From contig NC_092646.1 of assembly GCF_039555335.1 (NCBI RefSeq), positions 29,899,680 to 29,963,679 of the forward strand: a DNA stretch of 64,000 nt. The letters run 5' to 3'. Positions within the stretch are counted from its first letter, which is position 1, and the number at the start of each line of letters is the position of its first letter. A model generated the notes under the pieces. It made no database searches, was not told where the DNA came from, and worked only from the letters and a program-made list of their open reading frames with translations. Positions 24,787 through 47,296 of the stretch are shown in pieces. The DNA is from Amphiura filiformis (Eukaryota > Echinodermata > Ophiuroidea > Amphilepidida > Amphiuridae). Position numbers and translations under genes: made by a program.

Positions 24787-24992
24787 CTATACCTCTGAAA
24801 TAATCTTGTTCGAGCTTTTTTTAAGAATATAAACATTTGCGTCATCACAATTGTACATGTAAATTGTCCGTTGTTTTATTACAGTTTCTAATACACCGGT
24901 CTCCAGACATTGCTGTAGCTTGGTCTCCAAAGCAGGTCCAAATTGTTTAAATCTGTACCAATGATCGCCGATATTGAAAGTTATGAGTCCTC
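24787..24992 (-). CDS. METTL27-like: METTL27-like copy A, exon 5 (last)
   Basis: Follows a TTATACAG acceptor; 206 bp, phase 1 entry. Encodes GLITFNIGDHWYRFKQFGP...ILKKSSNKIISEV and a stop. By eye 8 of 67 residues differ from the copy B exon. Confidence 0.85.
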
Positions 24993-27900
24993 CTGTATAA
25001 CGGTAAAACAAACACACAAACAATCAAATACACGCACTGCTATTAACAAAGTGCTCTCGCCAACATGATATCCTTAGGTGGAGGTATACGAATTGTGGAA
25101 ACGTGTCATGTGGCGATATTGTCAACGTTTATCCACAAAACGGATAACCCCTATAGTTAAGAAAATGATTTACAAGCAACTTGACTTATACTTTTTAGGT
25201 ACTTTATGTGTATTTACTTGTCTCCAAAACAATGTAAATTTCTTCAAGGCCGTGAGTGCCGTGTGAAAGCAGATGATAAAGAATAAATACAATTAAATAA
25301 GGATGAAGCTTTGGAGCAGGGGTATGATAAAGAGCGTGGCACAGTGGTGTAGGTACTCTTGAAACATACCGTAAAACCTCGTCTACAAGCATATAAAGTG
25401 TTTGAAGAAGCTAAATTAATACGAAACAGCCGTAAATATGCCAATACCATAGATTGGTCTTGCAACAGTACTTTGGTAATTTGGTTGCTCAAACTCCTTA
25501 ATGTTTTAAGTTTATCGATGGATGGCGCCTAGATTAATTTATCTTTCATCAAAAGCACTCTATATGCTTGTAAACGAGGTTTTACGGTAATTCAGTTCAA
25601 GGTACTCGCCGAAGACTTGGTACAGAGTTTTGTCGTGATCAGTTTCTGAGTCATGAGTCCTCAATAAAGTTGTTATCTTAAAAACAAAATGTGACAATCA
25701 TGACCTACCCTCCTCTGAGCTGTTCTAGATATGCAAACGAATCAAGCTCTTCCAGCAGTGGTCACTATAATATTTCACGATCATAGGGGATGGGCAGTCT
25801 CAGGACCTGTGGTGATTAGAAGGCTTCGAACATGGGTTTTTACCCCAGTCACTACACTGGACTTATGTCATATCACGAGGGCTTTGTTTAAGCGCTAAGT
25901 TTTGTTTTATGAAGAAATATGCCAATAATTACTTGGCAACATCCCGAGCCAATTAATAGATTTAATCACAGGCCTTCAGACTTTACTCTCTGAATGGTTT
26001 AAATACAATTGGGCAACGGCAAAGGCGTCAATCCGTTCGGAAATATGAGGGGGAACACATATTTTTGTAAAAGTGGATTTTGGCGCTAACTACTTGAAGA
26101 GGCCATTTGGCATTTGGTGCACATATATTTTGGTTATAGTAACACAGACTTCATGCTCAAAATGTGGTCTAGTAATTCCGTGCTTGCTCTAATCAAACAA
26201 CATTTGTTTGTGACTTTATAATTAAAGTTACCAAAATGGGTGTTGGGGGATTTGATATCGTGGCAGGTCACCCATCTCAAAAGTAGGTGGGCAGGTCTCC
26301 CTGTCCCTCCTCCCGCCGGGGCGTCAATCGCCGTCTTGAAAAGTGGTGGGCACACATTTTGGGATAAAATTGGAATTAACCGCGTGAGCGCAGCACGTCA
26401 CACTTGCGAGACGCAGGGGTGTCTGAGGGGGATGTGTCCCCTGAGAATTTAGATATTTTTCATTATGAAGCCCCAATTGAAGTCATTTGGTGCACACTAT
26501 TGTTGATTTTAGTATTATCACAGATCTCAAAATGTTGGTCTAATACAATTGCGTAACGCAGGGGTGTGTGCCGCCTCAGAAGAAAATGAAGCGCTGATTG
26601 AAGCCGTTTAGTGCACATTTTTACTTGTTACATTAACTCAGACCTAAAAGTATGGGGTATAATACTCTAAAGACTATGTGACTCATATGGGGGAGGGGAC
26701 ATTTGATATTGTGGTCCTTAGCTCCCCCTTTGAAACGTCCCACTGATCCTCTGCACCCTTACAATTGGGTAAATGAATCGTGATATTGATATACGTTTGG
26801 ACATGTTGGAGGGGACGTCAAGCTCTTGGTATGGTCCCATCGTGCATGTAGCTTTATACAGACAGTTTCGAAAAGAGTAGTGTAATAACCTTTAATAACC
26901 CGCCCATTTATATTGTCAGTTCAAATATGGCAGCATTAAGCCCAGTTTATTGGCACTTTGCTAGTTTGCTTGGCTAGTTTTCTAGTTAGCTCTATTTTAT
27001 CCAGAAAAGCCTCTTCAAAATATCGCTGCGCTGCTGGCTGAGAGCTGCATTGATTGGTCGGTGGAAGCTGGCTAAGTAGTACACCAACGGATATGCAGTG
27101 AAATCACGGAAGTGATATAGCACTAGGATCCACATCATGCTCATCTATCAGGGAACATTTTCTCTAACCCCAATACACATTCACTGCATGACCTTTGAAA
27201 ATGTGGGTACACAATCTCATACTCCGCAACTTAAGGTCAAATTTTGCTCTATGATTGTTTAATTGAGGTTATTGAACTATGGCATTGGGATGAGGCATTG
27301 GTATATGGAAAACTCGGCTGACCCAGGATCGGCAAAAGAGTACTTCTCATGAATTTATGAAAAGGTTTGGGGTTGGGTTGATACAAAATATCATAATTAC
27401 CATTAATTATCATTCGAACAGATAAGTATCCCTCATACGAATAACGAAATGATTTATTGGAATTGTGCATTTGTTTCTGGAATAGCCTGTCCTCACAAAA
27501 GGAAAGTCCTCAATTATTTGAGTTGTCATCAATTAATTATGTTTATATGCGGTATCATACTATAGAGCTAACAAAATTATACATAATTTTATGTTCACAT
27601 CAATTTGATTAGTTTTAATTGCTTTAAGGAGAGTCTTTCTTTTTGTGAGGTGTTTATTACTTCATATTTTTACCGGGTTTGACGATACGAATTATCTCAG
27701 GCAATGCGTCAACTTCAATATGACCTGCGTAGATACCCGCACCGCTGACAACGCAATCATAGTATCCTATTAATTATAACGGCAAACAACAATAATAAAA
27801 AAAAAACAGCAAAAAGAGCAGTATACATAACTGTGTGATAATAGTATGTGACATACTTGTAGTACCCGTACCCTTACTCTTGTCCGTACTCGAGTCCAAA

Positions 27901-30900
27901 TTTCCATACACCTACTAGTGTTATTTCACTCCAGCAAATTGAGTTCAATTCTATTCAAATTCAATTCTTTCTACACCTGGAGTCTTGCTATTCAATTCCA
28001 ATTCAATCCACCTTGCTTTAGAATTAATTCAATTCGATTCCAATTCAATTTTTAAATTTCAAAATCATTTCATTTCAATTCCAATCCAATGCAGTGAAAT
28101 TAACAGCTAATCAATTTCAATTCAATTTTGAGCATTCATTTCAATTCCAATTCATTTCCAATTCCAATACAGTTGCAGTTTGTGTTAATTGACCAAAGGC
28201 ACACTGCAAAAACTGTGTCTAGAGATTGAACACTTTTTTGTCCTTGATTTGTAAACACAAGTAAAATCTAAACACAAATGTCAAACTTTCAAAACATCAA
28301 GTGTTTAATATCTAAATACAAGGCATCAAATTACTAAACATGTTTAGCATTTAGACATGTTTACAAATCGAGGACAAGATGGTGTCTACAGAATGGTGTT
28401 TAATATCTAGACACTGTTTTTGTAGTGCATATGTTTTAAATTTCACTCCCAATTTTGTGTAACACTTGAGTCAGCAACACAAAGTCAAAATCAAGTACAC
28501 TACTTGTCACAAAAGCATTTCAACAGAAGATACTTTATAAATTGTTATGTTAACTCACTTTTCACATTCAAACAATGCGAGTGATCCTTGACCTCTGGGT
28601 CCTATTTTATGAAACTTTGCAACTTATTATTAGTTCTTAGTTGACTGACTTCCTAATATTTGTCTTAACTTCTTGTCCACCATGCACATTATTTTCTAAA
28701 CTTACATGTAAGGTGTGTGGTATGATGGATAATGGGACCCTGTCCCCACACTGAACCCCTGCTTGTCTCCTGCTCCTCCTAAGATTTTACACCCAAAATC
28801 CTTGTACATTTGAAAAAGTGCGAAAAAAGCTGTCAAAGATATATAAGCACTTTCTTTAATGGTTTTCTCACAATTTGTTCAAATGTACAATGACTTTTGA
28901 GCATAAAAATAGGAGCTTGAGAAAAATAGGGGCTTTATGATTAGTGCCAAAAGTTTGAGATCTTTGGCAAGTTGGATCTCATTAGTATATGGTGCCATCT
29001 ATTGATGCTAAATTTTTAATGTGTGTCTCTTGTGTGAATAGATGTGGAAGTGTATCAGAATTCAGAACGGGGGGAGGGCACTTTTTACAGGTGGAATGAT
29101 CTAGAATCACAGACATCTGCTTGTGAATTGAAATGCTGAATTGAAATCAAAGCTGAATTTCATTTCAATTCCACTTCATTCTTCATCACTCAACATGATT
29201 TCAATTCCAATCCAATTCAATTCTTCATTGCTCACAATGATTTCAATTCCAATCCAATTCAATTCATGCCCAAGGCCACTCATTTCGATTCCGATTCAAT
29301 TCCAATGCATTGAAATGAAAATTGCCCAAAATACATTTCAATTCAATTCGATTTTAATGCATTGAATTAAGATTAACACCTACCCGTACCTGTATACCCA
29401 ATGGCCTCGGACCCGTACCCGTACTCACACGGTTGTACTCGTACCCGTACGTACCCGTATGTCCCGTAATCGTGCCCTATTTTGCCTTCGGACCGTTCTC
29501 ATGGACTGGTACCCGTAACCATGTAACCATACTCACGGCCTGGGACCCGTATCCGTATTCATGAGTATAATTATTTGAATTCCTGTTGTGTCTCGTGTGT
29601 CTCAACTTACCTGTCGGAATAGATGTTGTTTTTTCCTTACTTATCAGCTCTCTGTACAGTTTGCCATAGATACCGCTTGGTTGCATTTTGATCATGTCCT
29701 CTACGGGCTCGAGACCGTCGATATTCTCAAAACCAAGTTTCTTCATCTGAAAACATAAATCCACGTAGGCTATGCGTTTTGACTCGGCTAGTTTCAATCT
29801 GACCGGAAGCCAGGCTGCACAATTGTCCTCGCTTTCAGTTTTCAGGCTACACAATCGTTCCCGCTGTCAGTTTTCCGCTTCCCTAATTTCGGCCTGATTG
29901 CAGTTAGACGAGCCAAAACGCCATCAAAGGCTGGAAGGGGTCAATTATATAAAGAAAACTCTATTATTATTTTTTTACTTGCTAAATTTGTGGTGAACAA
30001 TACTCACACATGCATAAATAATTTAATACTAGCTTGTCCATCTCTGGTCCCATTATGAGGTCAGCGGATTTCTGCACTGCGCACAGAACACACACAAAAA
30101 GATTTGCACCATCTTTGCATAAACACTTACCTCGAACCCTAGGAGTCCAGATCCAGCCGCAATATCAATCATTTGACATTTTTTGTCTGAGACAAATGTT
30201 GATATAATATTGGCAAATGCACGAAGACCAACAGTATATGGACTTATATACGGATACGGATGTTTGAACTGGAGAAGAAAATATTTGTTATAAGAATGAA
30301 AATGTGTTGTTATAGTGACAAAACACTGACCCTGTTTAATTCTATTTTGTATTTAAAGTACGCGTACGGTTATGTTTATATTAATAATCTTACATTTACC
30401 CTATTGTTGATGGCTTACCGTAAAACCTCGTCTACAAGCATATAGTGTGTTTTTGATGATAGCTAAATTGAAACGAGACAGCCGTAAATATGCCAATACA
30501 ATAGATTGCTCTTATAATAATACTTGTTTGTATATGTTTGTATCAGTAATTAATTTGCTTAAACTCCATAATATTATAATTTAGTTGATGGAGGGCGCCT
30601 GGATTAATTTAGCTTTCATCAAAAGCACTCTATATGCTTATAGACGAGGTTTTACGGTATTCAATGATCTCATCGAATGTGTAAAAACAATTGTGTATAA
30701 TTTGCCTAAAGGTGGAGGATAAGTCATTACAATTCTCATTAGATATTTTTGAAATCAAATATTTGCCACAAACGAGGAAAACGGCAGTATTGACAAAGTT
30801 GAAGCCCCGTTCAAGTACATGTAGCTTGGCTGGCAGTATCATATAGTAGCGCAATGTCGTCTGCGAAGTCAATATCAATTATATTCAGATGACCAACGCG

Positions 30901-32778
30901 TGGGCTTTTCCTTGATTTCATTGTGAAGCCTAATCTCTCATCTCTGCCGTCTATTGCAATTCTGAGGCAATATTCTATTACGATGAAGAACAGATATGGT
31001 GCCAGAGTATCACCTTGTAGCACACCTGCTAAAGTTTCAAATTCATCTGTGTCACCATCTTGGGTCATTGCTTTAGCCTCTGAGTCTGTACCCTGGTAGG
31101 TGTCGTCAATAAGCATTCACAATGATATCTGGGATGCCATAAGCTTTCAAGATCTTTATTATTTTGCCTCTGCGAACTGTATCCAAAGCTTTTTTGAAAC
31201 CGGTAAATGTTACCACTACATAGATGTTCTTTTCTTCAATGCCCTCAATGATCCTTCTCAAAACAAGAATCTGCTCAGTCGTGAATCTTTCTTTCTGTAA
31301 AACCATATTGATTATGTCTGAGCTTATCATCAAGGTGTTGTCTGATCCTATTCAAGTGCATCACATTGAATGTTTTGGCGACTATTGATCTTCGGCTGAT
31401 TCCACAGTAGTGGGCTGTTAGACTGAGATCACCGCTCTGGGTACTGGAATTAGGTTCAAGATGGACCACAGGTTAGTTTTCTGTCGGTTTAGTAGTACTT
31501 AATTGCAGAAAACAAGTATGATTACGTCAATATTTGATTCCATGATCTCCTCTGGTGGAATACCATTTTGACCATAACTCTTGCCTTCCTTAATAGCCCT
31601 TTTAGCTTTCTGGTATTCCTCCATGTCAAAAGCATTTGTTCTGATGAGTAGTTCATGAAATGGATATCTTCCTTTATCACTTGTGGTGGATTACCTAGTA
31701 GGTTCTGCCATTTCTTCAGTCCTTCTGCTTTGGTGTTATCCTTTAGTCTTCCACTCCTTGTCTTTCCACTTACATCATTGAAGACACTCCATGCTATTTG
31801 TGTCTGTTGATCTGGTTGACCTCTTCATATTCCTTGAACTTGAAAAGGGCCTTGCACAATTTCTAAATAAGTATCTTTGGTATTCTCGTTGACGTGTCTC
31901 TTGTTATCAATACATTTCGAGCAGGTACAGATTTTGTATCGCCTTCATTTAATTAAATATTTCAATCGGTCAATTAACGAAAGCATTCGCAGGCGCATTG
32001 TGAAATATCCAGCCCATATGACATTATGAGCAAGTAAGTACAGAGTAACTTCCATGTATAGATTGATAAAAAAAAACAGACGGGCGGTGTACCAAGTGCC
32101 AAGGTCGATCTGTTAAAAGTGAGGGTCAATCGTTCCATGAAGTTGAGTGCGACAGACGATAATGATATGCCCACTATGCGCCTTTCAGTAAAATCATGGC
32201 ATCTCTCGTAGACGCGGAGGCCCGCAACGCGCGATATGACATTCGGCTCTCATATCAATATGCGAGAATCCATATTGCATACAATCACGAGGACTTTGCC
32301 GGTTTACTTTTTAGCGCGCTGTCTGTACCTCTCAATCTATGCTTCCATGTATCCAACACCAACCGCGCTTTGGGTATGACAACCACGTAGCACTACACGT
32401 CCACCTCTTACCCAAACCCGAATACTATCACTGTCAAACCCAGATAAGTAAGCAGACATTCACATACATAATATATTTCTCTTTTCCCGGCGGCGGCGTT
32501 GTTTATCGTCTGATTCCTTTTGCGCTTTCCCTCTCAATCATATCAGGATATTGTTTCATATCCCAAACCCGAATACTATCACTGTCAAACCCAGATAAAA
32601 TAAGCAGACATTCACCTACATAATACGTTTCTCTTTCCCCGGCGGCGCTGTTCATCGTCTGATTTCTTTCCCTCTCAATCATATCAAGATATTGTTTCAT
32701 ATCCTGATTAGCAAAGTAATCGGCTTCTTCTTTCGTGAGCACAAACTTAAGACTCTGAATCGTAGAATAGGCTGACAT
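24787..32778 (-). CDS. METTL27-like: METTL27-like SAM-dependent methyltransferase, copy A (5 exons, 243 aa)
   Basis: Exons on the minus strand: 32778-32620, 30268-30131, 29746-29611, 27766-27674 and 24992-24787; phases 0, 0, 1, 1 join exactly. The predicted 243 residues are close to the usual METTL27 length. Exon 2 ends in the SAM-binding glycine motif DIAAGSGLLGFE (residues 88-99). Exon 3 gives the acidic motif II region KKLGFENIDGLEP and the DMIKMQ stretch. Exon 4 has YDCVVSGAGIYAGHIEVDALPEIIRIVKPG, and exon 5 opens GLITFNI, together the usual post-motif strands of this family. Substrate is unknown even for the family; a soluble class I methyltransferase fold is expected. All splice borders are GT/AG, although the exon 1 donor (GTAGGT) is weaker than its paralogue's and the exon 4 donor is GTAAAA. 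No frameshift or internal stop was seen. Copy B lies upstream on the same strand. Confidence 0.85.
25078..25366. other. Intron 4 of copy A, non-coding part
   Basis: No feature recognised between exon 5 and the MITE at 25367. Confidence 0.5.
25367..25589. mobile_element. TACCGTAAAACC MITE, copy 1
   Basis: The ends TACCGTAAAACCTCGTCTAC and GTAAACGAGGTTTTACGGTA are inverted repeats, with GCATATA / TATATGC just inside. Three further members lie at 30416, 48065 and 49384. TA at both outer edges fits a Tc1/mariner-type target. Confidence 0.88.
25600..26090. other. Non-coding intronic sequence
   Basis: Nothing recognised. Confidence 0.5.
26091..26680 (+). repeat. Three degenerate copies of a repeat with a TTGGTGCACA box
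   Basis: TTGGTGCACATAT (26117), TTTGGTGCACACT (~26487) and TTTAGTGCACATT (~26607) are each followed by a TTGTTA/TTATAGTA..ACAGA-type stretch and AAAATGTGG or AAGTATGG. Old and unevenly spaced. Confidence 0.5.
26681..27139. other. Non-coding intronic sequence
   Basis: No gene, terminal repeat or RNA recognised; TAGTTTGCTTGGCTAGTTTT near 26960 is a short internal repeat. Confidence 0.5.
27140..27305 (-). repeat. Dispersed repeat, inverted copy of 21785-21965
   Basis: It carries the same landmark blocks as the plus-strand copy, in reverse complement, with scattered substitutions. Confidence 0.8.
27674..27766 (-). CDS. METTL27-like: METTL27-like copy A, exon 4 (93 bp)
   Basis: Acceptor ATTAATAG and donor GTAAAAAT, phase 1 to phase 1. 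Encodes YYDCVVSGAGIYAGHI...IIRIVKPG, the strand after the SAM motifs in this family. The adjacent intron, 27455-27673, is homologous to 36825-37053 beside copy B. Confidence 0.85.
27860..27905 (+). repeat. Short CCGTAC-type repeat
   Basis: GTACCCGTACCC and GTCCGTACTCG motifs; similar to the longer tract at 29377-29560. Confidence 0.6.
27940..28190 (+). repeat. CAATTC low-complexity tract 1
   Basis: Degenerate repeats of TTCAATTCCAATTCAA fill the stretch. A similar tract is at 29140-29370. Confidence 0.8.
28202..28427. mobile_element. 226-bp MITE with CACTGCAAAAAC ends
   Basis: CACTGCAAAAACTGTGTCTAGA-type left end pairs with TCTAGACACTGTTTTTGTAGTG on the right; TCCTTGATTTGTAAACA pairs with TGTTTACAAATCGAGGA inside. 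The internal arms also pair around AAACATG. No coding content. Confidence 0.82.
28430..29139. other. Non-coding intronic sequence
   Basis: No feature recognised; lies between the two CAATTC tracts in intron 3. Confidence 0.5.
29140..29370 (+). repeat. CAATTC low-complexity tract 2
   Basis: ATTTCAATTCCAATCCAATTC-type units repeat several times. The open frame across it is compositional. Confidence 0.8.
29377..29560 (+). repeat. CCGTAC / CCCGTA degenerate tandem tract
   Basis: Units such as TACCCGTACC, GACCCGTACCCGTACTC and GTACGTACCCGTATG recur. Located in intron 3 just downstream (minus) of exon 3. Confidence 0.8.
29611..29746 (-). CDS. METTL27-like: METTL27-like copy A, exon 3 (136 bp)
   Basis: Acceptor TTATGTTTTCAG, donor GTAAGTTGAG. 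Encodes MKKLGFENIDGLEPVEDMIK...TSIPTG; nine of 46 residues differ from copy B by eye. Its intact donor is the reference for the altered donor in copy B. Confidence 0.87.
30131..30268 (-). CDS. METTL27-like: METTL27-like copy A, exon 2 (138 bp)
   Basis: Acceptor TTTCTTCTCCAG, donor GTAAGTG, both phase 0. Encodes FKHPYPYISPYTVGLRAF... and the SAM motif DIAAGSGLLGFE. It is four codons shorter near its start than the copy B exon. Confidence 0.87.
30416..30659. mobile_element. TACCGTAAAACC MITE, copy 2 (intron 1 of copy A)
   Basis: Same terminal repeats and internal CGTAAATATGCCAATAC landmark as the other three members. Confidence 0.88.
30800..31920 (-). mobile_element. Decayed LINE reverse transcriptase fragment, minus strand
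   Basis: Minus-strand pieces read, in order, KTFNVMHLNRIRQHLDDKL, then NQYGFTERK, then VTFTGFKKALDTVRRGKI, then GVLQGDTLAPYLFFIVIEY and DIDFADDIALLYDTAS. The last is the (F/Y)ADD catalytic motif of reverse transcriptases. Frameshifts separate the pieces and both ends are missing. It sits in intron 1 of copy A in the sense direction of that gene. The clade is RTE/CR1/L2-like at best. Confidence 0.8.
31930..32410. other. Intron 1 of copy A, non-coding part
   Basis: No gene recognised in this stretch. Confidence 0.45.
32411..32712 (-). repeat. 151-bp tandem duplication of the exon 1 / intron 1 border
   Basis: The block starting CCCAAACCCGAATACTATC at 32411 recurs at 32562. The duplicated segment covers the 3' part of exon 1, its donor and the start of the intron. 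The intronic copy has an in-frame stop (CGATAAACAA) and a GTATGT donor, so it would break the reading frame if spliced in. Confidence 0.85.
32620..32778 (-). CDS. METTL27-like: METTL27-like copy A, exon 1 (start)
   Basis: ATG at 32778 opens MSAYSTIQSLKFVLTKEEADYFANQDMKQYLDM...ERETYY, 53 codons, ending at donor GTAGGTGA. Copy B has the same start, length and phase, which supports this ATG. The region upstream (32779-32870) is homologous to 47297-47335. Confidence 0.85.
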
Positions 32779-32903
32779 GACGGGTGAAGTTATTGCTGCG
32801 TTCTGTTCAATTGAAACCTATGTCACACAATTAAAAAAATATACGGTTGTGTCACTACTATACTACTACTAGCCAAAAACAAATCTCGATTCCAATGGTT
32901 TAA

Positions 32904-33564
32904 GGGATGGGGTATGAACGTAGGGACAGTATTTATTGTGGGACATTAGAGCACTTCAGACATATCGAATTGCATTCTGAATACGAAGAATGTCGTTCTG
33001 ATATCAAATAATATTGATTTTTTGAAATTCGCAATGTAATACACATTTTATGGCAAATGATTAAAAATTGATATTTTTGATATTTGACAGTACTCGAAGT
33101 AAACTTCATAAATCTGATGATTTATACTTAAAGTATATGTAGGTGGAATGAAAAGCCGAAGATCAATTGAAAATTTTGACCTTTCGTATTGAAGATATGG
33201 ATTGTTTTCCCCAAAACACAAAATAAATAGGTCTTTTTAGGAAAAAAATTCATATCTTCAATGTGAAAGGTCAAAATTTTCAATTGATCGTCGGCTTTTC
33301 CTCCCAGCTACATACACTTTAAGAATATATCATTAGATTTATAAAATTTACTTCGAGGACTGTAATATATCAAAAATGTGAAAAATATCAAATTTTAATA
33401 ATTTGTCATAAAATTTGTATTATATCGTGAATTTCAAAAAATGAAAATTATTTGATATCATAAGGACATTCTTCGTATTCAAGATGTAATTCGATATGTC
33501 TGATGTGCTCTCATGTCCCACAAAAAATACTGTCGAAACACTCAAAACGCTCATTCCAGATCCC
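32904..33564. mobile_element. TTAA-flanked long-TIR element, copy 2
   Basis: Same GGG/CCC ends between TTAA (32900-32903, 33565-33568) and same ~300-bp arms as 24077-24731. It interrupts the likely promoter region upstream of copy A; the paralogous flank of copy B lacks it. Confidence 0.88.
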
Positions 33565-33599
33565 TTAAGTCAGTGACCGGAAGTCAATGACCGGAAGTC

Positions 33600-33890
33600 A
33601 ATAACACGCATTAAACAATAATTGTTCAAACGTTGACCTATAAAACTTGTGGAGTATGAGTCTTTGTACCAGAGACCATACACTATATACCATACAATCA
33701 TAAAGGGATTGTTCGTATTACAGGGCCTTCGCACAGTTGGTCAATATGTCAAACTAAGTGACATGTGCTATTGGTCACTTGATAATGACCGCAGTAGCAT
33801 TGACGTTGTGCAATCAGTCGTACCTGTTTGGTGAGAGCCGCCAATCTTTGGCCCATAGCAATTTTTGTTCAATTAATTGCATGGTCACCG
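33600..33890 (-). promoter_or_regulatory. Upstream flank of copy A conserved with copy B
   Basis: CGCAGTAGCATTGACGTTGTGCA and CATAGCAA(G/T)TTTT-type blocks (about 33785-33875) match 47530-47620 upstream of copy B. Conservation shows the duplication reached past exon 1 and may include the promoter. No TATA box or start site could be fixed. Confidence 0.35.
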
Positions 33891-35170: not shown

Positions 35171-35179
35171 ATGTTGATT

Positions 35180-35340
35180 TCTCAGCGGATGGAACAGCCT
35201 TTTTTTTCAGAGGGAGTATGTAAATTAAATGGAACAGCTATTTTGGGGCCATTATTTCAGAGGGAGTATGTAAATTAAATGGAACAGCCAAAATGCCAAT
35301 GGGTATGTAATTTAACTAGAACAGCCTTAAATTAATATCG
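35180..35340 (+). repeat. ~64-bp tandem repeat, about 2.5 copies
   Basis: CAGAGGGAGTATGTAAATTA followed by AATGGAACAGC recurs at ~35209 and ~35264, with a partial third copy. Confidence 0.8.
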
Positions 35341-35428: not shown

Positions 35429-35589
35429 AAATTGGAATGTGCATGTGACCCTATGTATAGCCTCAAAGTGGAATTGGTATTGGAATTGGTAAACTTGTCA
35501 TCTCAGTTCAAGGACCTAAAAGCTGTCAAGGCGTTCTCCTCAGCAAATGTTAAAATATGGCTTTCACCTCTAAATGGACAACGGCTATA

Positions 35590-35675
35590 TTGATTGACTA
35601 ATTGTGCGTCTATTAAAGTATAATACGTATATCTAAATAAAATAGGCTTACACAACTGTCTTGTTTTCAATGTAT
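35590..35675 (-). other. 3' flank of copy B, homologous to the copy A flank, empty TTAA site
   Basis: ATATTGATTGACTAATTGTGC and TCTAAATAAA blocks match the two sides of the TTAA element at 24077-24731. Here they are separated only by a single TTAA (35613-35616) and a few bases. Confidence 0.8.
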
Positions 35676-35881: not shown

Positions 35882-38800
35882 CTGTATAAACACATACAAT
35901 CAAAAACACATGGGTTAATATATCATAGTCTACATTACCAGTCGCTATCCACTGTCCTCAAAAAGAAACTTATTTTGACAACAACCGGAGCAAGTTTTCA
36001 AATTTTAGCCCTGTAAAGGCCAAACCTTGACCTTTGACCTTTTTGCTTATAACTTGAGAACAGTATATCACAGATAGGTCAAACTATACTTTTTCTGGAT
36101 CCTTGTGACCAGGGGAACACGATGGCATGTTGGTTGGTTTATAACTCAATTTGAACAACTTTGAATTTTTTTCCCTGTATAAAGTTCGATGACCTTTATG
36201 TCGACCATATTGGACAAAATATTTTTGGCTCTCCCCTAGAATTGTTTACCAGACTGAATGCTACATCTGAGCCAAATTTCACACTTTTCACACAAATTTA
36301 ACAATGGTTTCACCATTCTGCAGCACTATACATATGATGTGCAGTAAATATTCATATATTCTTTTATACATGGATGCTTCAATTTTGACACAAAAAATAT
36401 TTCATTGAAAACCCTCTCACTCGGCTATTTAAAAAAAAAGGTAACCACGCTTCCCTAGTAATGGCCAAATGAATTCTGACCATCACTTGGCTCGATGGAT
36501 TCGTCTATTCGCTGTCGAAGTTACGTAATAATCGCTTAACTACCATAGCAACAGATGAATACAATTTTTGAATAGATAGCCCTGCACTACAAGCAGGTTG
36601 CACTCATCATGTGTATGTCAGCAATCATAGATTGAATACAATACCGCTCATTTCAAAGATACTAATCTTACAGGTGCGAGTGATCAGCATTTCTTTGACA
36701 TTATGTTTCAATGCATAGGTATCGCGCGAACGTTGTAGTGCAGAGCGATCAATTCAAAATTTGTATTCATCTATTGCTATGGTAGTTAATCCTGTTACAT
36801 CATCACTTCGACAGCGAATAGGAATTGTGCATTTGTTTCGTTTCTGGAATATCCCATTCTTAAATACAAACCTCACAAAAGGAAAGTCCTCCATTATTAG
36901 AGTTTAATAATTATTTTTACCACTGAACACAAGTATGATTATAATTAGGTGGTATCATACTACAGCGGAAGGTTCTACAGTTCACATCAATTTTATTAAT
37001 TTCAATTAGTGTGGACTTTCTTTTTGCGAAGTGTTTATTACTTCATATTTTACCGGGTTTGACGATACGAATGATATCTGGTAATGCGTCAGCTTCAATA
37101 TGACCTGCGCAGATGCCTGCACCGACGACAGCACAATCATAGCTTCCTATATTAATATAACGACAAATGAAAACAAAACAAAACATAAAAAAAGAGCAGT
37201 ACAGGTGAATTGTCAAGGTATTTTATGCTTGAAAGAATCGTCGTTGATGGGATCATCGGACTTGAACGGATCTTGGAAGAAATAGAAAACATTTCACTTA
37301 TGTTCATTAATCATATTCATGCATATTCATATAATCATGTTCCTTGTTGTGCATTGTCAGTATTGAAAATTGAAATAAGTCTAGAATGAACAAAATGGCC
37401 GTGGTCATAGCGGTGTACCGCGGTGGTATATCATATCTTACAGTACTGTAGCCCGGCTCACCCGACGTTGCCCCTACGAACTCTCACCCTCCTGGTATAG
37501 TGAGGGGTGCAACTGCCTGCCCTATTCACTTTATTTGTCATGGATATTGCTTATTAAGACCACCTATGCGAAAGATAATTTTACTGGCCCTCTGTCGGCG
37601 ATACAAAGGTCAAAAGATCATACAGAGGTCAAAATTCAAATTTCATCTCTTCAAAATAATGTTCTAGAAAAGTTCACCAAATTATTCCTCTTGCCATAAG
37701 AATCCAGAAAAGCATTTTTTTTTTCTGTTATAAGCAAAAAATGTCGAAGGTCTCAAATATATCTCCACAGGGGTCACAACTTGAAAAATGCTAATAGGTC
37801 TGTCACACTACACCGAATAGGTCTTCCGTACAGGAAACGGATGGCATTTTAGTAAATCCGTTGTTGTTCGTCAATGATCGTTTTATGTTCTTTTTATGTC
37901 CTGCTATCATCCGCCAAATGCGTTTCGTGTTAGGTGATGTTCGTTCAGTCCGTCGGCAAGTTTGTGCATGCACAAAACTTGAAACGGAGTGTACCGAATA
38001 CACATGTTCGGTATTTATCCGATGTGTGTTCGTATGGTGCTGCATATTGCCGGAGTTTGTTCGCCCTCCTTTCGTTCATGTTCGTTCTTTGTTCGTTGCA
38101 CTCGGCCCGTGTTCGTTGCAAATACGTTCCTGTGAGGCCTTCACCACCGGATAGCATATTTTTGCATTCGGTGATGTACGTTGACCCAGACCGTGTTAGT
38201 GTCACACTACACCGGATCGGTCTTCCGTATAAGAAACGGATGGTATTTTAGCAAATCCGTTAGTGTTCGTCAATGTTCGTTTTATGTTCTTCATATGTCC
38301 TGTTATTATCCGCCAAATGCGTTTCGTGTTAGGTGATGTTTGTTTAGTCCGTCGACAATACGTTTCAAGTTTTGTGCATGCACAAAACTTGAAACGGAGT
38401 GTGCCGAATACACATGTTCGGAAGTTGTCCGATGTGTGTTCGTACTGTTCTGTATATAAACCCTGGGTTTGTTCGTTATTCTTTCGTTTATATACCGCGG
38501 GTGTTTGCAAGGTTTCGCAGGCGCTTGTGCCGGATGTAGGCCTATGGCGAACATGTGCATCGATCATGGGGGAGGGACTTTCTGAAGGGTGTGTGACGCA
38601 ATATCATATTTCCCCCAGTACTTTAGTGACTAACAAGTAGAAAAAAGGGGGAAAGGAGAGAAAAAAAGAACAGAAAGTGAGAAAAATTGAAGAGAGAAGA
38701 GAAGAGAAAAAGTTGCATGTAAGTAGTATTGAGGGAGGGGCACTTTCTGAAGGGTAGAGGACGCAATATCAAATTCCTACCAGTTTTAGTGATTGACAAG

Positions 38801-41800
38801 AAAGAAAAAGGAAGAGGAAACATGGAAAAGGTTAAATTGTATACGTTATTGAGTAGGCCCAGGATAGTAGTACTAGTAAGCCTAAGTATAGGCCTGTGAT
38901 TATTTAGACAGTGCTTAAATGTGGTTCCTTGGCCCAAAAGCCTGTGAAAATTACTGCCGGCCAGTCCATATGCAGGGCCCGTGATATTTTGTCACCAAAG
39001 TCAGTATTTAAGACGGACTTATAGGTGTATTCCTGACTTTAACATATCAATCCATGCATGCTTTACCTGAAATTACGAGTCTGAAGTCTTATATATCTAA
39101 GTGTCAGTGGATCAGTGTAACATTTTAAATTTTGCAAATTCAAAATGATGCACTAAAAACAATTTTCCATTTTTAAAACTAAATTTATACACAATAGGCC
39201 TAGGCCTAATAATGTAAATAGGCCCTACAGTCCCCATGCAAATGGCTTCAATTGGACAAGTCTTCCTTTTTGCTTCTGCTATGGACATCCACGTGTTATT
39301 TTTAAAACAATTGTTTATATTATACAATAATGGTGAAAACTTTTTAATGGCTTCAATAAGGCTTTCGTTTCACCAATTTGCGGCTGTTTCAAACTAAAAT
39401 AGTACCCAATAATAGTGCTAAAATTGATCCAAAAATGACAAATGGCGTCAATTGGGCCTTCATTGTCCAAAGGTTTCTCACTTCTATTGCCCCCGGACGC
39501 TGGTTGCCCTGATATATCAGATTTGTAGACATTTGGTACATATTAGCCAATATTTGACCATTTTCGCCAAAATTTACCCCCTTAAAAGTTGTCTTTCCCC
39601 ACTTTGTTCACCCTCTGAAAAAGTGCTTGCTACGTCACTGCCTCTAAGGGGTCAAAAACCGTCTCAAACACCCTCTCCTCCCCCACTTTTCTGATAGGGT
39701 GGACGTCCCTGTTGGTGCCACATGCGACGGATTCGCCGGTCATTTGTCGGACGTTGAACGATTGAATATAAAACGCCTGCAGGATTATTAGCGGCCACAA
39801 CGCATAGAGAGACGAACGGGAATCGGACCCCAAATCCGGACATTTGTCGGACGTTGACCCCAAATCCGGTCATTTGTCGGACGTTGAACGATCGAAAATA
39901 AGACGCCTGCAGGATTATTAGCGGCCACAACGCATAGAGAAACGAACGGGAATCGGACCCCCAAACCCGGTCAATTGTCGGACGGTGAACGATCGGATAT
40001 AAGACGCCTGCAGGATTAGTAGCGGCCACAACGCATAGAGCGACGAACGGGAATCGGACCCAAAATCCCACCGAATCTTCTGCCGGACTGGTGATTTTTC
40101 CACCGAATAAAATATTTTTGTATTCGGTGATGTACGTTGATCCAGTCCGTCGTAGTGTGACAGACCTATAAAGAAAATAGTTTACCATAACCAGGATGTT
40201 TCCTAAACGAAGTAACATGGTCAAAGCCCAATGAATCATATTATAGACCTTGACATATTTGCGATGTTCATGACGAAACACACAGAATTGTATTTCCATT
40301 ATGATCAATTTTAACTATTTTAATGTATGTATGTCGTAGGCCACTCTCAAAATAAGTAAGTAATACACAGGTCCCAAGTTCAAATTCTGGATGGGTAGTG
40401 GATTTTTCCCATTTCTTAATATATATATTTGATAAGGAGAAGTAAGATGAGGTTTTACTCTATTTTACTCTGTCCATAATCAAATTAAATTTGATTACGA
40501 AACATCCCTAAAAGAGCCCTTATTATGGCCAAAATAATCTCATTTTTATTCACATAATTGAACTTTTAGGTACATTCTATAAGCCTTTGCGGGTAGACCT
40601 GAGATGTCGTCGTTTGACGTCAAGCCGATGTGCACATCGCTCACACGGTTGTTTGATAGCCTTTTGATGGGATCATTTATTAGTTTTTCAAACAAAACAT
40701 CATGTACAACCAAATTTTAGGCTTAAACAGCTAAATGTGATATCATGCTAATGTATATAGATGCTTTTGAGTCATTCTCAACTTTAATTTCCCCTCTTTT
40801 ACAAAATTATTCACTTTTATAGCATTTTTATAGCTTTTTCGTATATAAAATGTTTCTATTAATGACAAAATTGGTGGCGCTATTTAGTTACTGGAAATTA
40901 CTGTTTCACGCTTTTAATACAAATAATTCCTTTTATTGTTTGATAAAATATGTTTATAAAATGTCTTTGTTGTTTGTTTCACCTATTCCAGCTGTTTTAA
41001 TAGCAGTATTAATCACCTACCCCTTGCAAATAAAGAAATAAAAGAAACTTTTTGTTGCCTAGGTTTTATGTTTTGTAAAGCGCCCAGAGGCTATTTGCGT
41101 TGGGCGCTATATGAAATATCTCTTTATTATTATTATTATTATTATTGTTAAATATGATTTAGGATAAATAGCGCCATCTATAGTTTGCATTTAGTTAATA
41201 ATGAAGCCAATTCTATATACGTCAAACAACTGTGCTCAGCGAATATCGTTTCTGCGCATTTCAAAGTACACAGTAACAATCAGGTGGTGTATGACGTGCA
41301 TTCCCTAAATTCAGTAAATTTTCATCGTCAACCGTGTAATTGAATGGGATTATTTTGAAATTTTAAAACGCTTGAAATATCACAAACAAATAGGCCTATG
41401 TTGATAAATAATATAAATACAAGCTAAAACCGTTGGGGTTCGATAATGAACCCCACAAAACTAACCGAGTATATGGAAAATGCCATACGGCCGGGCGGTT
41501 TCACGAGTTGCCGGCTCGATCATGTCATCCGCCGCCTGGTAACAATGTGCGTATCGACGTGACGACATCACAAGTCTACCCGCAAAAGGCAATTCATAAT
41601 AACCACCGACCTCAAGTTATGGAACATGACGTTTCATACCTAAGTCAATTAAAGGTCATTCCAAGAACACATGAATATATTGGAGTTAAAGAACTTTGAA
41701 TTGAAAGATGAGTCTGTTTGAATTCCTGTAGTGTGTCTCAACTTCCCAGCAAACACAAAAACGTTTTTAAAACGTTTTAAATAAGTTATATTTTGGGTTT

Positions 41801-44800
41801 TGGTTTAGGTAAAAACGTTTTAAAAACATTAAAATGTCGGGTTATATAAAGGTCATGAAATCGTTTTAAAACGTTTTGTATGAAAACACACTACAACAAT
41901 ATTTTTAAAATGTTTTCGAAATGTCATTGTTAACTATTTTTGCAAACATTTTAGGCCAAATATTTTGTCAACACTTAAATAACATTGTGTTAAAATATTT
42001 GCACCCAGCAAACACAGAAATGTTCTTAAAATGTTTTTACAAAACGTTTTAATAACATTTAAATGTCGGGTTATATAAAGGTCGTGAAAACATTTTAAAA
42101 ACGTTATTGTAAATATTTCGGGCAAACATTTTTTGCAAAATATTTTTTAACCCCCAAAATAACATTCTGTTTAAAATGATTTGTACCAAGTTTTCAAAAA
42201 TGTTTTGGAATGTTATTAAAACGTTTTTATACCCTTTATATAACCCGACATTTAAATGTTTTCTGTACAACATTTGTGTTTGCTGTGCAGTAAATTACCA
42301 AGACATGTTATTTAATGTTATGAAAACGTTTTATACCATTAATGTACCCTTTATACAACCCGACATTTAAACGTTTTCTGACAACCTTTTATAGCCTTTT
42401 GCGAATGATGTCGAAAACGTTTTGTGTTTGCTGGGTTACCTGTCGGAATAGATGTTGGATTGTCCTTACTTATCAGCTCTCTGTACATTTTGCCATATGT
42501 ACCGCTTATTTGCATATTGATCATGTTCTCTAAGGGCTCAAGACCGTCGATGTTCTCAAAACCAAGCTTCTTCATCTGAAAATATAAATCCACATAGGCT
42601 ATTTTTATTAGGTTTGTGGTGAGCAAAATACATATACACGCATTTTATAAATAAATAGTATTCTTAAACAGTTGAGAAAGTTCCTGCAATCTTATTGGTT
42701 CTTAGCAGTGTGATATGAAATGATAGGGAGATTGCGATTTCCAAAAGTAGTATCGAACGCCCGTGCAATCTATTCAAAGTTACGTTACAGGAGAGTGGTT
42801 TTGATTAGATTGCACGGGCGTTCAATAGACATTTTTCCATCTTTCCCATCATGCACTATTCCAGGGGGGTACGGGTGTCGCAAAACGCATCATCTCCCGG
42901 GGGTGTACAGAGTTCTGTTCATTACATTCTGGAATACCGACATTTCGGCTGGTGCCGTCATCGGAAAAAGGAATCGCATAATGGCGCCGATGACTCGTAC
43001 CTATCCGGGGCAAAAAACATCATTTCTATGCGTTATTGACATGGGATCGTCAGGAAAAAAGTTTCCTGTTGTTGAAACCTAACTTTGTATACTATTATTA
43101 TCTTATATATAGATGTTCTACATTGCTCTATAACTGTATCACTCGTATATTTATCAATTACGTAATTAGTACCATCGATGGTCGTTACAAAAATCCATTT
43201 ATATGGAATCAGTATGCCCATATTAAGACAAAATAATTGCCAAGACCATCGGGTGCACACGATTTATGAGGTTGGTGGACTACGTCATACCCCCTGGAAT
43301 AGTGCATGATGGGAAAGAGGGGGAAAGGTCAATACGTACGCGCTATTTGAACCAATCGGAGGTGCATAGCAACAACGGAACTGACCGATTCTAAGCCCTA
43401 GGATTTGATTTGATTAAAATTTGGTATAGGCCTACTTATGATAAATATTTTTTATTTGTAAGTGTTTAAGAATGAGAATAAAGGTATTGTTTTTAGCCGC
43501 TGTCGTGCATCGTCTCATGCTGTACCACGAATATTTAATACTGCACAGTGGACCTCAGTGGTACCATGCTTCCTACAAAGACAAATCGAGGGTTGAGAGC
43601 CAGAAAGCCGAAACTTACAATTAACTGCGCCTACAAAATGAGCATGAAGTCGCCAGGGCACTATAGAATATACAGTCCATTAATCATGACAAAATTAAAT
43701 ATATAGAAAACAAAAGACATTGTAGAGGCAATATAGACTTTTGAAGACCAAAGGAAGGGGTCAACTTTATGCTCTTATGAGAGCTGGTCATAGTGAGTTA
43801 CGGCTTTCTGGCTCTGAACCCTCCAAATGCAAAAGTTTGTGGTGATTTGCTTAGATTTTAATACTACCTTGTCTGGACAAGCGGTACCATTTAATGGTTT
43901 CAGCGGATTTCTGCACCGCAACACAAAAAGATTTGCACCTTCTTTGCATAAACACTTACCTCGAACCCTAGGAGTCCAGATCCAGCCGCAATATCAATTA
44001 TTTGACATTTTTTGTCCGAGACAAATGTTGATATAATATTGGCAAATGCACGAACTCCAACAGTATATGGACTTATATACGGACAACACGGATGTTCGTC
44101 ATGTTCGTACTGAAAAAGAACAGATTTGTTGCAAGAGTGAAAATTTTTTTATTGTAGTATAACGAAAAAAACACCAATTAACACTGTTTAATTCTATATT
44201 GTCACCTAATTTAATATAAGTTACGACATTGGTTGTGATTATTTTTTATCATTTCACATTTCGTCGCCAGAGTGCTACACTATCGTAAGTGACATTTTGG
44301 GCAAAAATGAGATTTTGACGAATTATGGAAGGCCATTTAAAAACGCACATTTAAAACCAGGTTTTAAGTTTCAAAATTGCTTAATTATTTTTTAGTTAAT
44401 AAAATAAAATATCGTAAGTGCAATGCAATTTTAATTAATGCATGCAAGACTATCGTATGTGCCACTTACGATAGTCTTGCACGCTAATTTTGTTTTTCAT
44501 TTGCTGCAATACCATCGTATGTGCCACATACGCTACTTTATTGGGCCTAAACAGCAAAATCACGGAATGCTACACCATCGTAAGTGCAAAACAGTCTCTA
44601 ACACATCACTGGCTGTGACGTTGAAGGCTGTATGCGTTGTCACCATGCTGGATAAGTTCATAGCTCCCCTAACTGGTAATAGAGACGATAAATCCGGTGT
44701 TTTTAGTTTTAGATTCAGTAATAAATCTTGAGAGATAACATTACGGCAAAAGGTGTCTTGCTATTGTAAATATTATGTGCCAAAATAAATTAACACTTGT

Positions 44801-47296
44801 TAAGAAACATAAAATGACAAAATATTGGATATTTGAGCCGATATTACGCATATCCTAATTTAGCAATGCATGCTACAGTATACAAATACAACATGTTTTG
44901 AGGGGAAGTAGTCAAAACTACTGGTCCCTCGGTGTTGGATGATTTGACTACTTCCCGACGCGTAAGCGGAGGGAAGTAGTCAAATCATCCAACCACCGAG
45001 GACCAGTAGTTTTGACTACTTTCCCGAAATAAAACATGTTGTATTTGTTTTACTATACCTCATAAATATTTTCACTATCACGGTAAAATCGTAAACAAAA
45101 GTCAAAACACACACCAGTCAACGTGCATGCCGGCATGGTAAATAAGCTTAATATTTTGGCTTACCTGATTTTATTGGAGGATTTCTGTTCAATCAATCTA
45201 CATTTTGACCTATATTATTCGAATTTTCTTTTTAACATTCCATAAATAACAATTTGTTTCATAAAACGTCAAATTCGTGTGTTATTTTCCATCGGTATCT
45301 CGGGAAAATAACTGCAGCAGACGCCATTTTCACGATAAACGCATCTGCAGAATCGCCGTTGTGTAGCATAACGATACGTCAAAAGGAACGGTGACGCGCG
45401 GGGTCGATACACCGTGTGGTAGTAGGGTGCGGGAGTTCTTCCTACTTCCCCGCGTGCGCGTAATTGCACAGGCGCGGGGAAGTAGTCAAAATACCGTACT
45501 CGGACGCTGGCGTTATTAACCAATAAGATGTCTGGATTACCTAATAAATATTTATGAGGTATAGTAATATCGTATGTGGCACATACGATAGTGTTGCACT
45601 CTACACTTATTTCTGTTTGAGTGCAACACTATCGTATGTGGCACATACGATAGTGTTGCACTCTACACTTATTTCTATTTGAGTGTAACACTATCGTATG
45701 TGGCACTTACGACATCTAAATCAGTAAATAATTCATCGATTTATTAACTTTAACACCATTTATACAGTTTATATTATTAAAATCAAATTGCTTTACATTC
45801 CCATGTAATTTTATGGCTACTTAGAAACAAACGGCTACGCTAAACACAAAAATGCTCCTCCTGTAAAACTGTCCAAACTGCACTTACGATAGTGTAGCAC
45901 TCTGCCGACGATTTACCTTATATGGCATGTAGAACTGTATTCATTTTAAAGCAAAGTTGAACATTGATGGTGCTATTTATCTTAAATATTGTTGCTTGTT
46001 TACATCTTACTATAAATTGGCTAATGTTGTGTGTATATGGGTATGTATGTGTGTTAAAGGCTCCGTCAGTTTTGATTCGAGCCTCGCCAAATTCACACGG
46101 AAGATCAAGAAAAATATGAGGAGTGCTTAAAGGTACCTTTATTCGGAGGTCAAAGGTCAATTTTTTAAACTTGGTACGATTGGGTTTAAACTTGGTGAGT
46201 GGAATCCTTGATATGAGGGGAATGGGGAGGTCAAAGGTCAAAGGTCAAATTTGAAACTTTGACCCATTGGCCTTAATCTTGATCAAATTCATACGGGAGA
46301 TCGAGAAAAATAAGAGGAGTGTTCTAAGCGACATTCAGATGAAATCGGTGGTCGGAGGTCAAATGTCAAATTTGGTCAAAAACTTGGTCTTGGCCTTAAA
46401 CTTGCCCAAATTCATACGGGAGATCCAGAAAATACGAGAAGTGTTATAAACTACATTTGGTTGTAATCGAAGGTCAAAGGTCAAATTGTAAACTTTGTCC
46501 GATTGGGCTTAAACTTGGTGAGTGGAATCATTCGAGGTCAAATGTCATAATGGGGACAAATGTCAAAGTGTGTCAGATTCAGCATAAACTTTGTAAACTA
46601 ATTATAGCAAATTTAAATTTAAATCAATACCAAATGTTTATGAGTACGGGCATATGGTGCTTAATAATTACATTCTACAGATGTTATCAATCAAATTCAG
46701 ACCTATTTTCGTTCTGTTAACCCTATGAGAACTACCTGCCGATTGGCCAAAATGAATATTGTGTCCAATTTTGAACCAATCAAGGAGGGTGTTAATAAGA
46801 TCATCTGCAAATGCAAGTTTGACCACAAATAGTTAAAGCCTGGTCATTATTGGCAATTGAAATGAGCGTTTCAAGTTATCAACCAATCAGAAATGCTGTT
46901 AGATGACCAGTAGTGTCCAGGGTGTTAATACCTAAAATGTCTGTTAATTTTGCCAGTAAAGTAATCTTTCCTTTTTCCGGAACTTCATGCCTGCTTTATT
47001 CCGTTAATATGCTACCTGATTAATTGATTTAAAATAAATAATAGATTGCTCTGATCCTCAAGAGAGCACTCCACTTCCACCTCTTACTCGAATACTATCA
47101 CTGTCAAACCCAGATAAGTAAGCTGACATGCACTTACATGATACGTTTCTCTTTCCTCGGCGAGATCTTTCCAATTCAGATTTCTGTGCCTTTCAACCAT
47201 ATCAAGATATTGTTTCATATCATGATTAGCAAAGTAATCGGCTTCTTCTTTCGTGAGCACAAACTTACGACTCTGAATCGTAGAATATGCTGACAT
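35676..47296 (-). CDS. METTL27-like: METTL27-like SAM-dependent methyltransferase, copy B (5 exons, 247 aa)
   Basis: Exons on the minus strand: 47296-47138, 44109-43960, 42575-42440, 37146-37054 and 35881-35676. Phases are the same as copy A (0, 0, 1, 1), giving 247 residues. The SAM motif DIAAGSGLLGFE ends exon 2 (residues 92-103), with KKLGFENIDGLEPLENMI in exon 3, YDCAVVGAGICAGHI in exon 4 and GVIALNIGDYWYR in exon 5. The gene is 11.6 kb because introns 1-3 have gained several DNA elements. One insertion begins four bases inside intron 3, changing the exon 3 donor from GTAAGT to GTAACC; splicing there may be weakened. The coding frame itself is intact. The copies differ by scattered replacements and a four-codon length difference in exon 2. 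Confidence 0.83.
35930..36450. other. Intron 4 of copy B, non-coding part
   Basis: No gene. A few TGACCTTTGACC motifs near 36025; nothing else recognised. Confidence 0.5.
36455..36505 (+). repeat. Dispersed repeat shared with 7760-7800
   Basis: TCACTTGGCTCGATGGATTC and neighbours match; the block runs into the MITE that starts at 36506. Confidence 0.6.
36506..36820. mobile_element. MITE, TATTCGC family, copy 2
   Basis: TATTCGCTGTCGAAGT and ACTTCGACAGCGAATA ends, with TTAACTACCATAGCA and the mirrored GCTATGGTAGTTAATCCTG inside; same family as 20587-20925. Confidence 0.85.
37054..37146 (-). CDS. METTL27-like: METTL27-like copy B, exon 4 (93 bp)
   Basis: Acceptor TTAATATAG, donor GTAAAATA. 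Encodes SYDCAVVGAGICAGHIEADA...IIRIVKPG. Confidence 0.85.
37150..37790. other. Intron 3 of copy B, non-coding
   Basis: No gene recognised. A short plus-strand open frame at 37100-37285 overlaps exon 4 antisense and has no support. Confidence 0.5.
38565..38815 (+). repeat. Two-copy ~170-bp duplication
   Basis: GGGACTTTCTGAAGGGT..GACGCAATATCA at ~38573 recurs at ~38738, with following AGTGA(C/T)T(A/G)ACAAG in both. Confidence 0.75.
38816..39715. other. Non-coding interior of the composite element
   Basis: No gene recognised. Confidence 0.4.
39738..40075 (-). repeat. ~125-bp tandem repeats, about three copies
   Basis: GTCATTTGTCGGACGTTGAA, GACGCCTGCAGGATTA, GCGGCCACAACGCATAGAG and GGGAATCGGACC recur in order near 39740, 39865 and 39965. 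Open frames across it are by-products of the periodicity. Confidence 0.85.
40170..40643. other. Non-coding intronic sequence
   Basis: Nothing recognised. Confidence 0.5.
40644..41234. mobile_element. Chapaev-like (CMC) non-autonomous element, copy 1
   Basis: Ends CACGGTTGTTTGA and TCAAACAACTGTG are inverted repeats, flanked by the 4-bp duplication CTCA on both sides (40640-40643, 41235-41238). The second copy (52314-52766) has the same ends and a 4-bp AGCA duplication. CAC termini with 4-bp target sites fit Chapaev in the CMC group. This copy is ~140 bp longer because it contains a GCGCTATATGAAA...(TTA)n insert at ~41070-41150. Confidence 0.82.
41070..41150 (+). repeat. SINE/LINE-like 3' tail with (ATT)n
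   Basis: AAGCGCCCAGAGGC...GGGCGCTATATGAAA followed by about eight ATT units, a common 3' end of marine invertebrate retroposons. It is missing from the sister Chapaev-like copy, so it was added secondarily. Confidence 0.6.
41239..41744. other. Intron 3 of copy B, homologous to copy A at its end
   Basis: TTTGAATTCCTGT(A/T)GTGTGTCTCAACTT at the right edge matches 29570-29608 beside exon 3 of copy A. The rest is unrecognised. Confidence 0.5.
41745..42435. mobile_element. CCCAGCAAACAC element inserted at the exon 3 donor of copy B
   Basis: CCCAGCAAACACAAAAACG and CGTTTTGTGTTTGCTGGG ends are inverted repeats; the body is built of AACGTTTT, CCCGACATTTAAA and mirrored GTCGGGTTATATAAAGG motifs. TT flanks both sides (41743-41744, 42436-42437). 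Copy A has the uninterrupted site CAACTTACCTG (29605-29614 region), proving insertion after duplication, with a 2-bp duplication. Internal copies of the end sequence near 42003 suggest a compound structure. Confidence 0.88.
42440..42575 (-). CDS. METTL27-like: METTL27-like copy B, exon 3 (136 bp)
   Basis: Acceptor TATATTTTCAG; encodes MKKLGFENIDGLEPLENMIN...TSIPTG. Donor reads GTAACC because the mobile element starts at intron base 5. Confidence 0.83.
42748..42824. repeat. Short inverted repeat GAACGCCCGTGCAATCT
   Basis: GAACGCCCGTGCAATCT (42748) and AGATTGCACGGGCGTTC (~42808) are exact 17-bp reverse complements. Confidence 0.85.
42831..43327. mobile_element. MITE with TTTCCCATCATGCACTATTC ends
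   Basis: TCTTTCCCATCATGCACTAT...CCAGGGGG on the left pairs with CCCCCTGGAATAGTGCATGATGGGAAAGA on the right (~40 bp). Located in intron 2 of copy B. Confidence 0.85.
43588..43823. mobile_element. MITE with GAGGGTTGAGAGCCAGAAAG ends
   Basis: Left GAGGGTTGAGAGCCAGAAAG and right CTTTCTGGCTCTGAACCCTC pair with one mismatch. 236 bp, non-coding. Confidence 0.82.
43960..44109 (-). CDS. METTL27-like: METTL27-like copy B, exon 2 (150 bp)
   Basis: Acceptor TTCTTTTTCAG, donor GTAAGTG, phase 0. Encodes YEHDEHPCCPYISPYTVGVR... and DIAAGSGLLGFE; four codons longer than in copy A. Confidence 0.87.
44873..45568. mobile_element. Nested insertion: fold-back with GGGAAGTAGTCAAA motifs
   Basis: A ~170-bp hairpin at 44879-45052 (ACAACATGTTTT...GGGAAGTAGTCAAAACTACTGGTCC... 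and mirror) is followed by a segment bounded by ACTATACCTCATAAATATT (45051) and its reverse complement AATATTTATGAGGTATAGT (45547-45567). GGGAAGTAGTCAAA appears five times in both orientations, including 45478. Extent of the individual insertions is uncertain. Confidence 0.65.
45575..45720. repeat. Array of CTATCGTATGTGGCACATACGATAG palindromes
   Basis: Three to four copies, spaced ~74 bp, with GTTGCACTCTACACTTATTTCT in between. Confidence 0.88.
46050..46560 (+). repeat. ~120-bp tandem repeats carrying GAGGTCAAAGGTCA
   Basis: Units with GGGAGATC(G/C)AGAAAA, GGAGTG, a GGAGGTCAAAGGTCAA box and TTGGGCTTAAACTTGG recur four to five times (46146, 46231, 46350, 46470, 46530). The box contains a DR1 arrangement (AGGTCA-A-AGGTCA). 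Confidence 0.85.
46561..47080. other. Intron 1 of copy B, non-coding
   Basis: Nothing recognised. Confidence 0.5.
47138..47296 (-). CDS. METTL27-like: METTL27-like copy B, exon 1 (start)
   Basis: ATG at 47296; encodes MSAYSTIQSRKFVLTKEEAD...ERETYH, 53 codons, to donor GTAAGTGC. Start and length agree with copy A. Confidence 0.85.

Follow-up and report, generated by a model that had tools for sequence, protein, structure and literature searches.

A head-to-tail pair of METTL27-type methyltransferase genes in the ophiuroid Amphiura filiformis

METTL27 (WBSCR27) is an orphan methyltransferase. In one study, knock-out, interaction and nuclear magnetic resonance work gave no substrate, and a small molecule was left possible (PMC9240639); a table in another source enters the substrate as unknown (PMC13410288). 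The first study also describes how the substrate site of the mouse protein is formed by helices 1 to 3, which enclose the cofactor, with Y41 and W37 near the methionine part of S-adenosylhomocysteine and W37 proposed as a substrate contact (PMC9240639). The gene is mentioned in molluscs and fishes (PMC12652611, PMC4938671, PMC11241946, PMC7115899, PMC12121912). No METTL27 copy counts in invertebrates were found in the open-access text searched. Here, we describe two METTL27-type genes, A and B, in a 64,000-nucleotide stretch of Amphiura filiformis (RefSeq assembly GCF_039555335.1, contig NC_092646.1, positions 29,899,680 to 29,963,679 of the forward strand); this whole stretch is referred to as the window. 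The pair probably arose by ordinary tandem duplication within a divergent METTL27-type branch, and both copies have been kept as protein-coding genes. A first-pass annotation, made from the sequence alone, had proposed a tandem duplication of a five-exon METTL27-like gene with an S-adenosylmethionine (SAM) motif, and had called the METTL27 substrate obscure, as the sources above bear out.

Copies A and B both lie on the minus strand with B upstream of A, and their order is therefore head to tail. Their colinear coding exons are as follows.

32778 (ATG) to 24787 (stop end), minus strand: gene A, 5 coding exons, 243 residues
32778–32620, minus strand: exon 1 of A, with ATG, 159 nt, donor GTAGGT
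30268–30131, minus strand: exon 2 of A, 138 nt, with SAM motif I, DIAAGSG
29746–29611, minus strand: exon 3 of A, 136 nt
27766–27674, minus strand: exon 4 of A, 93 nt
24992–24787, minus strand: exon 5 of A, 206 nt including the stop
47296 (ATG) to 35676 (stop end), minus strand: gene B, 5 coding exons, 247 residues
47296–47138, minus strand: exon 1 of B, with ATG, 159 nt, donor GTAAGT
44109–43960, minus strand: exon 2 of B, 150 nt, 12 nt longer than in A
42575–42440, minus strand: exon 3 of B, 136 nt
37146–37054, minus strand: exon 4 of B, 93 nt
35881–35676, minus strand: exon 5 of B, 206 nt including the stop

The outer coordinates given at first pass, 24787 and 47296, are exact. Its statements that every exon, phase and the SAM motif are kept, and that both frames are intact, also hold: both reading frames are open, the introns are GT-AG in 8/8 cases, the phases are 0,0,1,1 in A as in B, and motif I and the acidic E112 position are the same in both copies. 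The two proteins share the same residue in 202 of 247 alignment columns (82%; BLAST E 1e-152), exon 2 of B coding for 4 additional residues, and the exon blocks share about 71–91% DNA identity, far beyond chance. Replacements affect 41 of the 243 aligned residues; the numbers first reported for exon 5 (8, over 68 codons including a split one) and exon 3 (9, over 45 whole codons) were reproduced.

Including insertions, the matching span is now 9.8 kb long for A and 12.0 kb for B. Intron loss, the mark of a retroposed copy, is found in neither gene; with 4/4 introns retained in each, the duplication was genomic, as had been proposed. The accompanying proposal that introns and both flanks align stands for the exon-proximal edges and for short flank stretches, but not for most of the intron and flank sequence. 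Intron lengths in A and B are 2351/3028, 384/1384, 1844/5293 and 2681/1172 bases, and only ~261/2351, 147/384, 77/1844 and 235/2681 bases of introns 1–4 of A can be aligned, all at exon-proximal edges except that the counts for introns 3 and 4 include weak 20–21-base matches. Similarity next to exons 1 and 5 continues for some 30–55 further bases into the flanks. The remaining features of the duplicated span are listed here.

33771–33874, unstranded: 5' flank of A, matching the 5' flank of B at 72%
47518–47629, unstranded: 5' flank of B, counterpart of the preceding (104–112 bp)
24044–24077, unstranded: 3' flank of A, 34 bp, matching 35585–35618 beside B and split in A by a foldback element
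24073–24741, unstranded: TTAA-flanked foldback element of ~670 bp in the 3' flank of A; the corresponding site beside B is empty
32411–32562, minus strand: stretch of intron 1 of A in which the tail of exon 1 and its donor edge are partly repeated in tandem

The A and B spans have been altered independently since the duplication, in their introns and by the flank element. A second copy of the foldback element, 91% identical, lies at 32900–33574, and the two bracket gene A. A candidate further 3'-flank match, 21815–21896 with 33585–33670, was rejected and read as a dispersed repeat, because 21806–21960 also matches 27147–27296 in inverted orientation. Gene conversion, judged by the longest identical run only, finds no support; that run spans 32 residues, a length reached in 1,405 of 20,000 shuffles.

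The region is rich in repeats, as would suit an assembly artefact in which two alleles or haplotypes were joined end to end. However, divergence at synonymous sites (dS, 0.17) and across the alignable intron edges and flanks (noncoding K, 0.14–0.19) exceeds usual heterozygosity. Intron lengths and contents differ as well, and the foldback element stands beside A and not beside B. Because noncoding K matches dS and intron content differs, alleles are a very improbable explanation of the pair. Tandem gene duplicates of this age are common.

The locus has also produced material that did not survive. A third exon 1 adjoins gene B in opposite orientation, with a 5-base gap relative to the intact copies; the frame read from its own ATG contains two stops.

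48308–48469, plus strand: third exon 1, inverted and broken (tblastn E 2e-5; blastn E 3e-19 against exon 1 of A)
49652–49723, plus strand: possible exon 2 relic of the third copy, a weak match (E 0.18 and 0.13) for which order and strand fit, and nothing more

From the broken exon together with the exon 1 tail repeated in intron 1 of A, it follows that exon 1, at the least, has existed here in more than two copies, one of which has since decayed. A short hairpin element whose ends are CCGTAAAACC-CGTCTACAAGCATATA occurs four times (25366–25589, 30416–30660, 48064–48295 and 49384–49628); two copies lie inside introns of A and one directly adjoins the broken third exon 1.

Whether A and B have both been maintained was judged from their divergence and by simulation. 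NG86 estimates are dS 0.170 and nonsynonymous divergence (dN) 0.092, for a dN/dS ratio (omega) of 0.54 with a bootstrap range of 0.33–0.95. A pairwise codon model gives an omega of 0.55 over all codons (likelihood-ratio test p 0.034), 0.40 without codons 39–58 (p 0.003) and 0.41 for residues 59–243 (p 0.006). The noncoding K equals dS, and the 800 to 819 aligned noncoding bases carry 24 to 39 indels as against one to six in the coding sequence, depending on gap cost. Each copy was evolved neutrally at half the A–B rates in 5,000 runs under three gap settings, with every indel whose length was not divisible by three scored as frame loss; an open frame was retained in 0/5,000 runs for either copy at each setting, and with substitutions alone the frame and ATG survive in only 3–7%. 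That selection has acted on both genes after they were duplicated, as suggested at first pass, is thus supported by neutral frame survival of 0/5,000 and by omega below 1. The constraint is a past one, and present selection on both genes forms no part of this claim.

These data also limit the idea that one copy alone is functional and the other is a young pseudogene, its frame surviving by chance or only lately released. An overall omega of 0.55 is what would be expected if one lineage were constrained and the other nearly free, codons 39–58 at the junction of exons 1 and 2 are nearly unconstrained (dN 0.45), and the broken third exon 1 demonstrates that copies do decay at this locus. A copy free since the duplication nevertheless never keeps its frame in the simulations, and every splice site is intact in both A and B, leaving such a pseudogene unlikely.

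Among proteins with solved structures, METTL27 is the closest family by sequence and by fold. In a PDB sequence search, mouse METTL27 (7qcb) is the top match for both copies (E 3e-12 and 5e-12), followed at a distance by the next entries (3.5e-4 and 2.6e-3). Foldseek likewise places 7qcb first for the predicted fold of A (E 1.4e-11), from a model in which 91 of 243 residues reach a predicted local distance difference test score (pLDDT) of 90 or more and confidence is low in the N-terminal lid; an earlier model, based on just two sequences, could not be used (pLDDT 37.8). With an E-value limit of 0.001, the model of A matched 1,204 PDB chains, and the 50 listed are mostly SAM methyltransferases. 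Motif I (D/E-x-G/A-x-G-x-G), present in both copies, and the predicted Rossmann-like core place the proteins among the class I SAM-dependent methyltransferases. With mouse METTL27 (7qcb, 7qcc) the pair has in common motif I, GFxxxxG, AxP[ED]xxRxxKPGG and Y50xxP53. Bud23/WBSCR22, by comparison, has 12% identity and is absent from the PDB sequence matches at E up to 1 for A and B (21 and 15 matches).

The first-pass label METTL27-like can be upheld, METTL27 being the nearest solved relative, but naming the pair METTL27 proper is not supported. Core identity to mouse METTL27 is 27% for A (64.3 bits) and 26% for B (62 bits), whereas a bacterial relative reaches 38% and 101 bits against the mouse protein and so lies nearer to it than A or B. 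In an alignment of A and B beside 17 METTL27-type proteins, namely mouse and 16 fetched from plasmids, 10 of the 16 bacterial sequences outscore copy A against mouse METTL27. The tree has 18 rows (L008 left out), with mouse as the only animal row besides A and B; A and B occupy a branch of length 2.81 and group at 88/85 with the bacterial sequence L001 (Shinella WP_064332971.1), not with mouse. Two rows were flagged by the tree tool, mouse for being long and A for its composition. We therefore name the pair METTL27-type, a label chosen because the N-terminal YxxWAxxYD segment is missing, mouse METTL27 is nearer to a bacterial relative, and the pair has a long and weakly placed branch in a tree with one other animal row. 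L001, annotated as a class I methyltransferase and nothing further, scores 61.6 bits to A, about the same as mouse METTL27, and has the core in common; it differs from the pair in being a single open frame on a plasmid and in keeping Y-x-x-W-A-x-x-Y-D. The window yielded no neighbouring single-copy gene for comparison with the Williams-Beuren region neighbours of METTL27. Many marine invertebrates have several METTL27-like genes.

Scans of prokaryote genomes and the first two scans of viral contigs gave no confirmed relative, a weak negative since each scan used two short peptide patterns, taken in the first prokaryote and first viral scans from the divergent N-terminus. A third viral-contig scan, with an alignment led by L001 as seed, returned 32 loci. 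Four of these, L017–L020, are METTL27-type methyltransferases with YxxWxxxYD that match the bacterial query at 31–34% identity along most of that protein. Among the matches to mouse METTL27, L005, L009 and L013 each adjoin a CDP-diacylglycerol-serine O-phosphatidyltransferase gene, and METTL27 itself matches phosphatidylethanolamine N-methyltransferase 8ys9 in the PDB (E 6e-10); these neighbours and this match are hints of a lipid methyltransferase cousin.

Several points weigh against two retained genes of METTL27 type. In VIA-align, METTL27 (7qcb) is not among the 50 matches listed and other families rank first. Methyltransf_11 is the sole Pfam model past its cut-off, in copy A only (22.2 against 21.2 bits), and no Pfam model exceeds the cut-off for copy B; mouse METTL27, by contrast, scores 57.5 bits for Methyltransf_11 and 60.5 bits for Methyltransf_25. 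The start codon of either gene could lie in an upstream exon that was not recognised. In one of the three gap settings the exon 1 alignment contains small self-cancelling indels, and its frame may have been shifted and then restored. Pairwise omega merges both lineages and cannot separate A from B; one copy could have become non-functional recently.

The one unusual feature of the pair lies at the N-terminus. Similarity is restricted to the core, the first ~60 residues of the pair being dissimilar, and the YxxWAxxYDxD segment that carries W37 and Y41 in mouse is missing from A and B, either deleted or unalignable, with Y50xxP53 kept. The N-terminal lid is common to mouse METTL27 and its nearer bacterial relatives. 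A missed exon with YxxWAxxYD was sought in intron 1 by comparing A with B, and none occurs among the shared stretches, which comprise exon edges, the repeat of the tail of exon 1, and a pair of weak matches at unlike places, one of 23 bases (E 0.058) and one of 21 residues by tblastx (E 0.004, 33%).

The missing segment raises the alternative that A and B are METTL27-derived pseudoenzymes, or binders of another ligand, that kept the SAM core and lost the catalytic lid. Neither copy has a tryptophan at the W37 place, which is occupied by W in 11 of the 17 other METTL27-type proteins and in 9 of the 10 that outscore A against mouse; Y41 is aromatic in 17/17. Against this, W37 is itself variable, missing in 6/17 of these proteins and in 12/19 viral-contig sequences (the 7 that have it include L017–L020, the four best used matches to the bacterial query). 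The Y41 counterpart is ambiguous, a YYF or YHY run possibly supplying the aromatic in one of two alignments, and the lid is modelled at low confidence. With motif I and the acidic E112 position unchanged between A and B, a pseudoenzyme or other-ligand reading appears rather unlikely.

Replacements between the copies concentrate in residues 39–58, with 12 of 20 changed as against 29 of 223 elsewhere (Fisher p 5e-6, for limits set after the alignment was viewed); a 20-residue window as dense anywhere arose in 12 of 20,000 shuffles. This stretch straddles the boundary between exons 1 and 2, where the lid is missing. Local positive selection in codons 39–58 is not claimed (p 0.053, limits post hoc), and compensating indels may inflate the replacement count there. 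The same pattern would be expected whether a linker is under relaxed constraint, indels compensate for one another or the lid is diversifying.

The probable course is an ordinary tandem duplication with both genes kept. A segment with one five-exon METTL27-type class I (Rossmann-fold) gene was copied locally, head to tail, after which mobile elements and indels rewrote most of the intron sequence and both genes were retained. The genes are presumably expressed, and SAM binding and methyl transfer would follow from the kept core, in which DIAAGSG, E112 just past the second strand and the KPGG turn may hold SAM; the enzymes would then pass the methyl group to a probably small substrate. In place of the part of METTL27 that forms the substrate site, the pair appears to have a dissimilar N-terminus, encoded by exon 1 together with the first part of exon 2, and this portion varies most between the copies. 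It is conceivable, if speculative, that an animal METTL27-type branch swapped the ancient lid for a new one and that the duplicates diversify their substrate through a fast lid on a near-fixed SAM core. A duplicated pair with a kept SAM core and a replaced, varied lid would lend itself to comparing the parts that could determine substrate choice, and the missing lid is the aspect worth following.

Elsewhere in the window, 57752–64000 is one long tandem array that extends past the window end, with a 28 bp unit arranged in higher-order periods (99, 127 and 155 bp), and a 189-bp tandem repeat occupies 6031–7122 in 5.8 copies. Rfam gave no match at gathering scores within the window. An open frame at 17968–18525 on the plus strand contains an RNase H domain (Pfam E 1.8e-9) and is probably part of a retroelement. 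A 214-codon open frame at 19223–19864, also on the plus strand, has no Pfam match above cut-off; it is reminiscent of exons of the short-chain collagen C4-like type in marine invertebrates.

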